Assembly: GCA_903838355.1 (NCBI GenBank)
Contig: CAILYC010000040.1
Location: forward strand, 1 to 64,000
Origin: an uncultured Burkholderiales bacterium
GTDB lineage: Bacteria > Pseudomonadota > Gammaproteobacteria > Burkholderiales > Burkholderiaceae_C
DNA: 64,000 nt
Direction of reading: 5' to 3'
Below the pieces are notes generated by a model. The model searched no databases. It saw only the letters and a list, made by a program, of their open reading frames with translations, and was not told the origin of the DNA. A program made the translations under genes and the position numbers. This document shows positions 42,534 through 48,378 of this stretch, one piece after another; the first letter of the stretch is position 1; every line of letters starts with the position of its first letter.

Positions 42534-44000
42534 TTACTTTGAAGTTGCAGGCGCGCTGGCGGCCAAGGGTGGATTATGGGGTGGAGGTGGAGGCGAAGGT
42601 GCAAGTACAGGTGCAGGTGCAGGGGCAGAAAAAGGATTGAGCCCAACAGCGCCGGGCGAGGATGGGCCTGCGACTGGCGCAGCAGGGGGCACGGGCGCAT
42701 CCGACAAAGTTTTAAGAAAAGCCACCACATCGCCAATTTCACTGGGGGTGAGCGCTGGGCCCTCCGAGGCCAACCGATTGAAAGGCGCGCGGTCGCTCAC
42801 AATGTTGGAGAGATAAGCATTGGGCAAATCATTGGGCACACCAGCGGGACCGTACCATCGCTTTGGATTGGCGTTGCGGGTGGCATAAAAGGAGACCACC
42901 TCGTTCAAATCGGTAAAGACGCCGTTGTGCATAAAATACTGCCGTTGTGCAACGTTTCGAAGCGAGGGCATGCGAAAAGTGCCACAAAACTGCTCGATCG
43001 TTACACCCACAGGAACATTGGAGCTCAGCGCCGGCTTGTTGCGCTTGGGCCCACAAAGCCCGAGATCAAAATTGGACGGGTTGGCGTTGGCAGGAATTTT
43101 GGGGTTTCTGGGTATGCCTGTCGCATACATTGCAAAGTCAGTGAATAAATTGTCACTGGGCTTAGAGGATTGCGGGTTCATCAAGTGACACGATGCGCAG
43201 TTGCCCTTGCTCGGGTTCATGAAAAGGTTCAGACCACTTTGTTCTGACGCACTGAGATTGACCTGCCCCTTTACAAACTGATCGTATTTGGAATTAAAGG
43301 CATTGAGTGCAGGGCTTTTTTCAAAGGTAGCAATGGCTTGTGCAATGGCTTGAAACGCCGTGTCGGTATTGTTAAAGACACCCAGGCCAAAGAGCGCGGT
43401 CATGTCTTTGGCGTAACTGGCCCTTTGTACTTTGGCCACCACTTGACTGGCATTGGCGTTGTTCATCTCTGCGCTGGATAAAAATGGGATCATCGCTTGG
43501 GCCACCAAGTTATCCGCGCGCCCATCCCAAAACAGCCCTCCTTTGGGATCCGTGTCTGTCCCCACCACCCTGAATGAAAAGCTGGGAACAAACGAGCTGT
43601 AGGCGTTTTGCATGGCATTGCGACTACCAAAGGAGTTGGGGGTACTGCCCAAGGGGACGCCCAGTCTTGAGCCATTGAGACTGGAAAAACCAGTCTGCGG
43701 GTTGTGGCAACTCACACAGGCAACGCCCGCAGGTTGCGAGAGATTTTTGTCATTGAAAATCTTTTGTCCCAAATTTTCCAGCGTGACCATAGGGGCGGCG
43801 GCTGTGCTGTTGGGAGGCGCTGGGGAAGGTGCTGTGATTTGCGCGTGCGCCGAATAGGTCCAGGCCATGAGGCCTGCGAGCGTCAAGGCCACGAGAAAGA
43901 CTTGCCGCCACATGTGCTTGAGGTGCTTGAGGTGCTTGAGGTCAATACCGTGTTGAGTTCCTATGGCGAGAGGACTCGCCGAATTCATACTGCTGTTCAT
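42534..44000 (-). CDS. Di-heme cytochrome c peroxidase / MauG-family protein
   Basis: Two CXXCH sites (GVACVSCHNPQTGF, GNCASCHLMNP); FRMPSLRNVAQRQYFMHNGVFTDLNEVVSFYATR. Pro/Ala-rich C-terminal tail. Confidence 0.88.
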   Translation of the reverse strand: MNSSMNSASPLAIGTQHGIDLKHLKHLKHMWRQVFLVALTLAGLMAWTYSAHAQITAPSPAPPNSTAAAPMVTLENLGQKIFNDKNLSQPAGVACVSCHNPQTGFSSLNGSRLGVPLGSTPNSFGSRNAMQNAYSSFVPSFSFRVVGTDTDPKGGLFWDGRADNLVAQAMIPFLSSAEMNNANASQVVAKVQRASYAKDMTALFGLGVFNNTDTAFQAIAQAIATFEKSPALNAFNSKYDQFVKGQVNLSASEQSGLNLFMNPSKGNCASCHLMNPQSSKPSDNLFTDFAMYATGIPRNPKIPANANPSNFDLGLCGPKRNKPALSSNVPVGVTIEQFCGTFRMPSLRNVAQRQYFMHNGVFTDLNEVVSFYATRNANPKRWYGPAGVPNDLPNAYLSNIVSDRAPFNRLASEGPALTPSEIGDVVAFLKTLSDAPVPPAAPVAGPSSPGAVGLNPFSAPAPAPVLAPSPPPPPHNPPLAASAPATSK

Positions 44001-44099: not shown

Positions 44100-45632
44100 T
44101 CAATTGGGGGGTGGCGGCTGGAAATCACGAATCTGGTAGACCGAGTTGATCACTTGAAACTCAATGGTCAGGGGTGTTTTAAATTTCACCAAACTGGGCA
44201 AATCGTTGGGCGGCGGGGGCAGCACCGTGCCTGGCGTCAAGGTCATGGTGACTGGGCTGGCGTTGATGGAGAACGTGAGCGTGGACAAGTTTGCTGCGTA
44301 GCTCAGCAAATACCCAGACTGTTGGATCACCGATTGGGGCGGGGGTGTCAGGTTGCAGCTGACCGATTTCGCCACGATGGCGGAACCTGGGGCACCCATG
44401 TTGGCCAGGATGTTGATTTGCACGGGATTGGGCACGTTTTGTGCAGGACAGCTTTTGTCGATCACGCCTGGGGCATTGGTGCCCACCACCAAGACACCGC
44501 GCAAGTTGATCGTGGGCGGATTGGCGATCCAGGGTATGGCGCCCATCAATTGCACTTGCCCCACCACCTGGGCTTGAAGGGCTGGGGTGTTGCTGGGGGA
44601 GTTGACGCCCGTGACGGTCAGCACGCCATTGGTATTGAGCACATTGAGTTGGACCAGCTCGGAATTGGCTGGCATTTGTGCCGCCACAGCGGAAGGGACT
44701 TGAAGGTTCAGGCCCTGTGTTTGGATCTGCCCGTTTTGCACATTGCCAGCCGAAGTGGGGACACTGATCAAGAGGGTTTGACCATTGGCAGGGGCCGGAG
44801 TGGCATCGACCACTCGGGTGGCAAAAAACACATTGCCCGCGTTGTTTTGAGAAGCTTCGACCCAGGCTCTCACCAGACTGCCCGAGGTGATACTTTGTGG
44901 CACGGCATTGAGGGCATGAATTTGAGGCGGTCCGGCGTTTTGGTTGATCAGCAAATCATTGTTATTGCGACCCAGAACCATCCCACTGACCAGGTTATAA
45001 GTGGGTGCAACGCTCAGCAACTCAATCCTCGAGGCTTGCAGCACATAGGTGTTTTTAATGGTATCAAAAATCCAGATGCCATAAATCTGTACGTTCACAT
45101 TCGCTTTCAAGGCAGCCAAGTTGGCCAAGCCATTCAACACCGTGGCACTTCCTGAGGCGGTGCTTTGCGCCAACACTTGAACCCATTGGTTCATCACTTG
45201 GAAATAGCTCCCTTGCAAGCTCGCGTTGATGGGGCCACGCAACATTGGCGTGATGTTGATGACACTGGCCACGCCCGATTGTGACTGGGTGATCTTCACG
45301 CGTTGCCCCAATTGGGTTTGAGTCGTCGTGAAGGCCCCCGTTTCGTCATCGGTTTGGCTCACCGCTTGGCTGTCGTCATACTCGACACCGTCAACAATCA
45401 CACTGCCAAAACCCGCAATCAAACCTTCCACCAGACCCGTACCGCCACTGCCCACCCCACCGGGCGAGATGAGGCTGGCCACCACGGCAGTGCCGCCACC
45501 GCCTCCGCAAGAAAGCAAAGACGACAGCAACACCAGCAACCCCAAGCGCGAGATCCAAGTTTTGGGGGAGACGCCGCGGTGGCTCCCCATGACCATGGGC
45601 CGAAGCAGCAGAGAGACGAAAAAAAGACTCAT
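44100..45632 (-). CDS. DUF5666-like lipoprotein
   Basis: LSSLLSCGGGGG lipobox; repeated short beta-domain patterns (AGFGSVIVDGVEYDDS..., VSGMVLG..., VRAWVEAS...) typical of DUF5666. Confidence 0.75.
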   Translation of the reverse strand: MSLFFVSLLLRPMVMGSHRGVSPKTWISRLGLLVLLSSLLSCGGGGGTAVVASLISPGGVGSGGTGLVEGLIAGFGSVIVDGVEYDDSQAVSQTDDETGAFTTTQTQLGQRVKITQSQSGVASVINITPMLRGPINASLQGSYFQVMNQWVQVLAQSTASGSATVLNGLANLAALKANVNVQIYGIWIFDTIKNTYVLQASRIELLSVAPTYNLVSGMVLGRNNNDLLINQNAGPPQIHALNAVPQSITSGSLVRAWVEASQNNAGNVFFATRVVDATPAPANGQTLLISVPTSAGNVQNGQIQTQGLNLQVPSAVAAQMPANSELVQLNVLNTNGVLTVTGVNSPSNTPALQAQVVGQVQLMGAIPWIANPPTINLRGVLVVGTNAPGVIDKSCPAQNVPNPVQINILANMGAPGSAIVAKSVSCNLTPPPQSVIQQSGYLLSYAANLSTLTFSINASPVTMTLTPGTVLPPPPNDLPSLVKFKTPLTIEFQVINSVYQIRDFQPPPPN

Positions 45633-46489
45633 GACTTGGCATCCATGCCGGGTGAGAGAAGTGCGGCCTGTCCATCAGGGTCTGCTGCAAAGGTAAAAAG
45701 TCCCAGTCTGAATCGATAAGGCGCATCACACCCTTCATCGTCCTTCACCATTTGGGTTGCGGCTTGCACTATTTGCTTGAGAGCCTGGGCCCAGAGCTCA
45801 CGCGCCATGGCGTTCAAACGCTCAATCGACTCGGCACTCAAGCCATCGGCAAACACACTTTGCTCCAAAAACTTGCTCCTCTCGGGGTTCAAGAGATTGT
45901 GGATACCGGCCGAGAGGTGATCGGCCACACTGACCGCCAGCATTTGACTCGCCTCTTTGTTTTGCGCGTCAGGGCTAAAACTCTCTTTTAGTAAGCGCAC
46001 TTGGGGCCCCAGATCTTTGGCCACACCCAAGCGGCACATCTCCATGAGGACCGACCTCGGGTGAAAATCTTTCGACACCGATTGCGCCAACTGCTCAAAA
46101 GAAGGCTCTGCACCTGAATAAGCAATCGTGTCCTCAAGGCCCAGGCTCAACCACCGGGTGACCACTTGACTCGCCGCGCTGGGCTTGCCCCAGTGCTCGC
46201 GCTGCTGTTGTAACTGCAAGGCATCCATGTTCAATTCTTCGCGGTAGGTTCTGACCTCTTTGCGGTGCAGCCCAGAGAGCAAACTGACCGCCGAGTCGGA
46301 CGTTTTGCGCTCCAAGCGCTCGAGCTCCATCATGGCCATTTTCCAAAACAAAGGTTTCAAGGCCGTTGCAAACTCGGTGTAGCCAATCCCAGTACGGCTC
46401 ATCCACAACACCAAAGGCTGAACAACGGCCAGCATCTCGTCCAAAGAGGATGAGTTCGCGGGCTCGTTTGGGGCTTCAAAATTCGTCAT
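45629..46489 (-). CDS. DUF6502 family protein (possible winged-helix-type regulator)
   Basis: LDEMLAVVQPLVLWMSRTGIGYTEFATALKPLFWKMAMMELERLERKTSDSAVSLLSGLHRKEVRTYREELN. Start at MTNFEAP. ATGA overlap with the DUF5666 start. Confidence 0.75.
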   Translation of the reverse strand: MTNFEAPNEPANSSSLDEMLAVVQPLVLWMSRTGIGYTEFATALKPLFWKMAMMELERLERKTSDSAVSLLSGLHRKEVRTYREELNMDALQLQQQREHWGKPSAASQVVTRWLSLGLEDTIAYSGAEPSFEQLAQSVSKDFHPRSVLMEMCRLGVAKDLGPQVRLLKESFSPDAQNKEASQMLAVSVADHLSAGIHNLLNPERSKFLEQSVFADGLSAESIERLNAMARELWAQALKQIVQAATQMVKDDEGCDAPYRFRLGLFTFAADPDGQAALLSPGMDAKS

Positions 46490-46500
46490 GATTTTATTGT

Positions 46501-46517
46501 ATGGGAAATTTACCCAT
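46501..46517. promoter_or_regulatory. 17-bp palindromic putative operator, site A
   Basis: ATGGGAAATTTACCCAT, 11 bp upstream of the DUF6502 ATG. Confidence 0.6.
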
Positions 46518-46654
46518 TTAAAAAGTATTTTCGTTTTTGAAATAAAGCACGCCATTTGAAGCGCGTCAAGCTCAGAAAATCGTTCAATAGACCACAAAAT
46601 TGCGAAATAAGAATTCTTTAGAACTCAATTTTTCTAAAATAACCCTGGTTATAG

Positions 46655-46671
46655 GTGGGAATTTTTCCCAT
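46655..46671. promoter_or_regulatory. 17-bp palindromic putative operator, site B
   Basis: GTGGGAATTTTTCCCAT, same TGGG-N7-CCCA geometry. Confidence 0.6.
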
Positions 46672-46681
46672 TTATTTTAAT

Positions 46682-46698
46682 ATGGGATATTTTCCCAT
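46682..46698. promoter_or_regulatory. 17-bp palindromic putative operator, site C
   Basis: ATGGGATATTTTCCCAT, followed by a half-site ATGGG at 46704. Confidence 0.6.
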
Positions 46699-46815
46699 AT
46701 AGTATGGGTGTCACTTTTGAAAGTTCTGTTGCCACTTTCACGGGGGTTTAAGCCGGCAGCAGAACTTCCAAGTGACGATCAACGGTCAAACAACAGTCCA
46801 TTTGGAGAAAAAACC

Positions 46816-48378
46816 ATGAGCAATGATTTGAGCACCAGCGCCGGCGGCGTCCTTCCCATCACACTCGACACCACCCACACCTTCATCACCATTTTTGGCT
46901 CGAGTGCGGCCCAATCCATCACCGTCAATGGCCACACTTGGGTGGCCGACCCCACCACCCACCTCTACCAAACCACCACCGATTTGGCGGCCGAGTGGCA
47001 GACCTGCTATCTGGCCATGCAAAACGGACAAGGTGCTAGCCTCAACGATATCCAGCGCCTGGAAGGCAACGCCCAAGCCGTCTTTGACAACACGGCCCTC
47101 AGCAAACTGAGCACGAGCCAGTTGAGCACCGATCGGCAAGACACTCAACGCGAATTGGATGCCATCTTTGCGAGCATGGTCGGCTCGAATGTGAGCTTGA
47201 ATGCGCCCATGACCAAAACACAGTACTTGAGCGTGGAGAACTCGCTTCAATCCAATGACAGCTTGTCAGAGTTGGCCATGCAAGGACACGGTTTGGACGG
47301 CACAGGGCTCGCGCGCTACGCCGGCTACTCCAAAGATTTCCAAAACAATGGCGACAAGACCATCCTTTTTATCGGAGGCGGACTCAACAACAACACCAAC
47401 GCCGTTGCCAACTTTTTCGATGACAACATTCTTTCCAACATGCCGTTTGCCGTGGTTGAGCACAACGGCACGGCCACCCAACTCAATGAAAATGCCAATG
47501 CTGAGAACACCTTGACACAGGCGGTGAGCGCATTGGACGACAGCATGTTTTACCGAACCTATTCTGCCAGCGACTTTGCGAGCACGGCATCCTCCACCCA
47601 CGTCAATTTCATCTCTCCCGCCTTGACCTTTCTGAACGCCCAAACCACCACCGCGCCCAAGGGCTCCATCGTCACGCTTGAGGGCTATGTGGTTTCAGGC
47701 ACCATCACCACCAACACCCACACCTGGCAGGCCAATGCCTCGGGGACTTTTGAAACCAGCGCAGACTTGGCAACCGAATGGAGCAATGCCTATCAAGACT
47801 TGATCAACAACGGCGGGACAAGCTTAACGCCTGAGTTGCGCTTGGAAGCCAATGCCCAATCGGTGCTGCTCAACACAGGACTGGCCAAAGCCAGCGCCAC
47901 CCTACAAACAGCATACCGGGTGGATTTGCAACGTCAATTTGATGCGCAATTTGCCGCGATGACACTGGCCAGCGTTGACCCCAATGCGCCCTTAACGCTC
48001 CAGACTTACTTGAGCATTGAACACACTTTGCAAAGCAACCCGCAACTCGAAGAACTGGCCATCCAAGGTCACGGCCTCAATGACACAACTTTCACACAAT
48101 ACAAAGGCTACACCGATCAAATTCAAAATCGGATCGACAACAAAACCTTGTATGTAGGTCCGGGGCTGGATCACAACGAGGCGGCCATTCCAAATTTGGT
48201 CGACGATGTCATCCTCTCTCACATGCCCTTCGCGGTGGTGGTCAAAAATGGACAACTCAAACAACTCAACCAAAATGGCAACATCGAGTCTTTGGCCACC
48301 GACGCGGTCACCGCTTTGAATGCGACGATGCACACCACGGCTTTGCAGCCACAAGACTTCTCACTCACCAAGGCTTGA
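46816..48378 (+). CDS. Protein of unknown function with two internal ~230-260-aa repeats
   Basis: Module 1 (…HTWVADPTTHLYQTTTDLAAEWQTCYLAMQNGQGASLNDIQRLEGNAQAVF…LAMQGHGLDGTGLARYAGYSKDFQNN…) is mirrored by module 2 (…HTWQANASGTFETSADLATEWSNAYQDLINNGGTSLTPELRLEANAQSVL…LAIQGHGLNDTTFTQYKGYTDQIQNR…). Confidence 0.8.
   Translation: MSNDLSTSAGGVLPITLDTTHTFITIFGSSAAQSITVNGHTWVADPTTHLYQTTTDLAAEWQTCYLAMQNGQGASLNDIQRLEGNAQAVFDNTALSKLSTSQLSTDRQDTQRELDAIFASMVGSNVSLNAPMTKTQYLSVENSLQSNDSLSELAMQGHGLDGTGLARYAGYSKDFQNNGDKTILFIGGGLNNNTNAVANFFDDNILSNMPFAVVEHNGTATQLNENANAENTLTQAVSALDDSMFYRTYSASDFASTASSTHVNFISPALTFLNAQTTTAPKGSIVTLEGYVVSGTITTNTHTWQANASGTFETSADLATEWSNAYQDLINNGGTSLTPELRLEANAQSVLLNTGLAKASATLQTAYRVDLQRQFDAQFAAMTLASVDPNAPLTLQTYLSIEHTLQSNPQLEELAIQGHGLNDTTFTQYKGYTDQIQNRIDNKTLYVGPGLDHNEAAIPNLVDDVILSHMPFAVVVKNGQLKQLNQNGNIESLATDAVTALNATMHTTALQPQDFSLTKA

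Follow-up and report, generated by a model that had tools for sequence, protein, structure and literature searches.

DUF6502 proteins as probable autoregulators acting on palindromic operators in their own promoters

The palindromes preceding the DUF6502 gene studied here are, as judged by comparative genomics, very probably landing sites of the DUF6502 protein itself, and there is a strong case that they serve as operators through which the protein represses its own operon as well as a divergent promoter. A previous, sequence-only reading of this DNA had nominated DUF6502 as the autoregulating factor, a view that comparison strongly supports through the conservation of the sites, their rarity elsewhere, a predicted helix-turn-helix (HTH) and the match between operator class and protein subfamily. 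The sites, their conservation, their near-confinement to DUF6502-bearing genomes, the class-subfamily match, the promoter geometry and the predicted HTH were all obtained by computation.

Results

The analysed stretch of DNA (hereafter the window; 64,000 nucleotides) belongs to a draft genome of 2.74 Mb, where it is part of contig 40. Among the contigs collected, those of Burkholderiales MAGs are most closely related to it. Inspection of the 326-bp region between the DUF6502 gene (45629–46489, minus strand, 286 aa), which is proposed to encode a DNA-binding autoregulator, and a divergent gene recovered the three 17-bp palindromes described before, designated operators O1 (ATGGGAAATTTACCCAT; 46501–46517), O2 (GTGGGAATTTTTCCCAT; 46655–46671) and O3 (ATGGGATATTTTCCCAT; 46682–46698). 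O1, the predicted autoregulatory site, lies exactly 11 bp from the DUF6502 start codon (46487–46489, minus strand) and the centres of O2 and O3 are 27 bp apart, both as previously reported. The additional half-site that had been claimed at 46704 did not survive comparison: it is missing from both closest orthologous loci (G020 and G033) and is thus probably due to chance. An Rfam scan of the region returned chance-level matches only.

The motif TGGG-N7-CCCA occurs three times in the intergenic region as compared to 0.005 occurrences expected from 20,000 dinucleotide shuffles. When any arm and any spacer of 3–12 was admitted, a three-copy family of 4-bp arms emerged in 14% of the shuffles, and hence the single sequence is only moderately surprising and conservation has to settle whether the sites are real. 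This freedom in the choice of arm and spacer is what speaks for the palindromes being accidental, or a small dispersed repeat without regulatory role. However, position and sequence are kept across many loci, the version with an all-A/T spacer (TGGG-W7-CCCA) is found at only four sites in the window's genome, three of which reside in this intergenic region, and the motif counts at DUF6502 loci as well as the genome-wide distribution of sites described below already contradict such an origin, which we regard as having virtually no chance of being correct. The three palindromes are real.

Sites are kept upstream of DUF6502 orthologues with 89% (G020), 84% (G033) and 54% (G017) protein identity. 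An equivalent of O1 is present at the same place in all three genomes, O2 has counterparts in G020 and G033, and O3 is conserved in the latter two as well. Orthologous sites often show extended symmetry, e.g. TGATTATATGGGAAAATTTCCCATATAATCA. Across 61 related genomes, TGGG-W7-CCCA is mainly found at DUF6502 loci, which account for three of four sites in the window's genome, 3/3 in G020 and 2/2 in G033. Nine sites were detected in 33 genomes of the same genus without detected DUF6502, and most of those examined are located inside coding sequence. One of them (G036:C20:87), located where a contig ends, shows the arrangement of an operator with TATAAT, suggesting that it represents a truncated promoter whose DUF6502 gene probably lies in the missing part.

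To the conservation in orthologous genes can be added that in distant DUF6502 genes. We assembled a family-wide set of 260 DUF6502 genes for which upstream DNA was usable. Perfect inverted repeats with 5-bp arms and spacers of 3–12 were all counted de novo, with no motif supplied, and compared to five shuffles of each upstream region. TGGGA-N5-TCCCA (61/260 loci) and TGGGA-N6-TCCCA (43/260 loci) both rank in the top three of these repeats, and neither arose in any of the shuffles. An arm match of at least 9/10 is present upstream at 161 of the 260 loci; many of the remaining 99 have a palindrome of their own and some have none. For the first 80 loci, such a match was obtained in 46 cases, as compared to 11 of 400 shuffles and one of 78 downstream regions. 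No operator of this type was found near the DUF6502 genes of Acinetobacter. At most Acinetobacter loci (L087–L102), DUF6502 immediately follows a longer gene of the same orientation, the 3' end of which appears cupin-like by eye.

The motif is also not equally common genome-wide; it is rare elsewhere in the window's genome, and searches for exact sites in further genomes gave a corresponding picture. GTGGGA-N5-TCCCAC is present in 16 of 17 genomes with DUF6502 as compared to one of 24 without, and TTGGGA-N6-TCCCAA in 23 of 24 with and 3 of 24 without, the latter search including a few chance or unexplained sites. As the DUF6502-bearing genomes were chosen largely because their loci were already known to carry sites, the independent evidence provided by these numbers is the scarcity of sites in the negatives and, within the bearers, at positions other than DUF6502 loci. 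The sites are nearly confined to DUF6502-bearing genomes and mostly located at the DUF6502 gene itself.

The type of operator tracks the protein subfamily. Operators of the ATGGGA-N5 class (outer A) go along with histidine at residue 143 of the DUF6502 protein in 43/43 cases, GTGGGA-N5 operators (outer G) with arginine in 34/38 and TTGGGA-N6 operators (outer T) mostly with proline (27/31) and with S, T or N at residue 75. This correspondence holds even between paralogues of one genome, which serve as the best control: in G675, G554, G442 and G282, paralogues have different operator classes, each matching the subfamily of its own protein. Residue 77 varies with the operator too. None of seven proteins carrying neither K nor R at this position has the standard operator, as compared to 161 of the 253 others (p = 0.001); two Q77 proteins have GTGGAA...TTCCAC upstream and the single A77 protein has GTGTAAC...GTTACAC. 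Specificity matching is confounded with phylogeny, as most of the remaining variation is inherited by clade, and a column-by-column association of protein and operator class is dominated by it. We therefore used independent pairs, which yielded five independent switches between A and G operators, three of them accompanied by a change from H to R at residue 143. With only five contrasts, the association between protein and operator is suggestive.

These data also bear on whether the sites belong to another regulator of the host, DUF6502 being merely a member of the regulon. Any conserved operator could be that of another protein, and binding by DUF6502 is predicted. However, genomes without DUF6502 are nearly devoid of sites, replacements of K77 accompany altered operators, and one regulator acting on all copies as a third party would not give rise to a pattern in which paralogues of the same cell have different operators matching their own subfamilies. 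Such a regulator thus appears very unlikely, and we continue with DUF6502 as the protein that would recognise the sites.

All 67 relatives scanned and the window's protein are members of PF20112 (DUF6502), the latter scoring 34.3 bits against a gathering cut-off of 27. The N-terminal region of the protein had been described as HTH-like, and AlphaFold2 (AF2) modelling agrees with this: the model (pLDDT 82) contains helices at residues 37–58, 65–72 and 76–85, the last two forming a predicted HTH (residues 65–85) with R76-K77 at the start of its last helix. Of 260 DUF6502 proteins, 259 have kept R76. In the model, the HTH is followed by a winged-helix-like unit (residues 131–166), the second helix of which starts at residue 144, i.e. 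beside residue 143, and then by a C-terminal helical part. Curated Pfam HTH profiles (TetR, MarR, Xre, LysR and others) gave only stray matches in one or two of the 67 members, none better than E = 0.08, and an NCBIfam scan of the window provided no curated HTH family match for DUF6502. A sequence search of solved structures retrieved no DUF6502 relative up to E = 10.

When the model was compared to 350,542 chains with Foldseek, no PDB match was significant, HetR ranking top (E = 0.053, TM 0.3). HetR, the cyanobacterial heterocyst regulator, is dimeric and binds a GGG-N5-CCC inverted repeat as well as its own promoter (PMC4192349). The proposed role of DUF6502 is alike in that a regulator acts on an inverted repeat with triple-G arms, including one in its own promoter, whereas the spacing differs, DUF6502 sites reading GGG-N7-CCC or GGG-N8-CCC. 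The HetR family is not among the Pfam matches listed for DUF6502 members. A profile comparison by hhalign of A3 with a single HetR sequence likewise gave no support for homology to HetR (probability 0.5%). We treat the structural resemblance as a lead.

We next consider how the protein might act. TACAAT (46496–46501, minus strand), positioned 6 nt before the ATG, is a putative -10 box for DUF6502, and the window's -35 box (TTTTTA) is weak. At 30 related loci in the window's clade, the operator occupies the spacer between -35 and -10 with fixed geometry, and so overlaps the putative DUF6502 promoter. A hexamer matching TATAAT in at least 5 of 6 positions is present at the fixed offset after 19 of the 30 related operators, as compared to 0.57% of background positions. 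The ATG is commonly located 6 nt beyond the -10 box in this clade, indicating that the DUF6502 mRNA is probably leaderless. A scan of the region for consensus promoters returned nothing above threshold, and the case for the promoter thus rests on the conserved geometry.

The sequence-only reading had left it open whether a dimeric repressor or activator controls both directions. A bound operator in the promoter spacer would exclude RNA polymerase, and this location favours repression, more precisely autorepression; the dimer we infer. MerR-type activators bind in the promoter spacer as well, and together with the weak -35 box of the window this would suit a DUF6502 protein that binds the palindromes and mainly activates, or switches between both modes. 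However, several relatives possess near-consensus boxes at 17-bp spacing that need no activator, e.g. L079 with TTGACT, 17 bp holding the operator, and TATATT, and operators of the N6 subgroup overlap the -10 region itself. A mainly activating or switching protein is hence improbable, and autorepression remains the preferred reading.

The genes that would be subject to this control include two located behind DUF6502. A gene for a DUF5666-like predicted lipoprotein (44100–45632, minus strand) overlaps the DUF6502 stop codon by 4 nt, and a MauG/CCP di-haem peroxidase-like gene (42534–44000, minus strand; PF03150, 1.3e-36) is the third of the probable operon. In the family, the gene after DUF6502 is overlapping or close and encodes a predicted lipoprotein of the DUF5666 type at many loci. 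Relatives of the DUF5666-like gene were found at 42 of 84 loci searched, and PF18914 (DUF5666) matches 25 of 39 proteins encoded downstream of DUF6502; the window's own downstream protein has no match to this profile. A relative of the MauG-like gene is present at nine loci, redundant copies included, and follows in the closest group. In G617, G773 and G698, extra operators precede DUF5666 genes by 41–92 bp, which provides an independent link of the operator to exported lipoproteins, and others precede beta-propeller genes in G442 and G675. The remaining extra sites, namely one at a sigma-54 activator gene in G617 and several without clear target, may be due to chance.

Three observations made at individual loci are recorded here. 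In two related genomes (L296, 2474; L297, 2459), TTGGGA-N6-TCCCAA precedes beta-propeller (PF09826) genes, beyond the DUF6502 promoter. At L293 (2350; G617), a PAS/sigma-54 activator gene is preceded, at a distance of 140 bp, by an operator-like site. Sensor histidine kinase genes occur near DUF6502 at L304 (3557–5017; confirmed by Pfam) and L009 (by eye); a link of these kinases to a releasing signal is possible.

On the other side of the intergenic region, O3 is placed in the putative divergent promoter as O1 is in the DUF6502 promoter, between a -35-like TTTTAA (46675–46680, plus strand) and a putative -10 box (TATAGT; 46698–46703, plus strand) that at the equivalent position reads TACACT (G020) or TATAAT (G033). 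O2 is the predicted upstream site of this promoter. The transcript is predicted to start at ~46710 and its 5' end to form a conserved stem-loop of 67 nt (46710–46776, plus strand) with 26 pairs, four of which have compensatory changes on both sides among three genomes. Among 61 genomes, the stem-loop is found at this locus only. The divergent gene (46816–48378, plus strand) encodes a protein of 520 aa with two repeats that are ~43% identical by repeat alignment. It is present in G000 and G020 only among the genomes examined, both of them from the window's genus, searches against plasmids, Pfam, NCBIfam and PHROG retrieved nothing, and the structure model of its product is poor (pLDDT 45). The stem-loop could stabilise the mRNA. 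Alternatively, it could be an RNA product in its own right, as one genome (G033) keeps the operators, the promoter and the hairpin and lacks the divergent ORF.

Discussion

Taken together, the comparison suggests a model in which we infer that DUF6502 binds directly and as a dimer, that the outcome is repression and not activation, and that a signal is involved. A DUF6502 dimer would bind TGGGA-N5-TCCCA via its N-terminal HTH, with the subsequent winged helix probably assisting. When bound at O1, the dimer would cover the stretch between its own -35 and -10 and keep RNA polymerase off, so that DUF6502 would be autorepressed together with the DUF5666-like lipoprotein gene that overlaps it and, probably, with the MauG-like gene, until a signal releases them. 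O2 and O3 would act likewise on the divergent promoter, whose transcript is predicted to start with the conserved stem-loop and to run into the divergent gene.

In this, DUF6502 would resemble one-component autorepressors of the TetR, MarR or LacI kind, which likewise involve a local self-controlled operon and a palindromic operator over the promoter. Unlike these, DUF6502 could not be convincingly assigned by sequence to any of the curated HTH families of Pfam or NCBIfam. PF20112 is on record without assigned function, the DNA-binding role being the proposal of this analysis, and a literature search retrieved no paper on DUF6502 and none with representative operator strings, a mention of DUF5666 proving uninformative. 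The mechanism is thus of a standard kind; a DUF6502 regulator family with a readable operator and a testable recognition code appears to be new in the libraries searched.

A more far-reaching interpretation, which we consider rather doubtful, is that DUF6502 constitutes a proteobacterial regulator family with a fold distantly related to HetR, in which the HTH would read the G triplet and winged-helix residue 143 the flanking base, and which in the window's genus would also drive a promoter whose stem-loop RNA is the product itself.

In the samples drawn from the window's order and from across its class, DUF6502 is encoded in 16% and 27% of the genomes, respectively, with up to four copies per genome. 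If the proposed autoregulation is true, the whole DUF6502 family would be transcription factors, mostly controlling themselves and a neighbouring exported protein. Their operator would be readable from the genome, with a partial recognition code that mutations could probe, and the family would provide a first functional handle on the DUF5666 lipoproteins.
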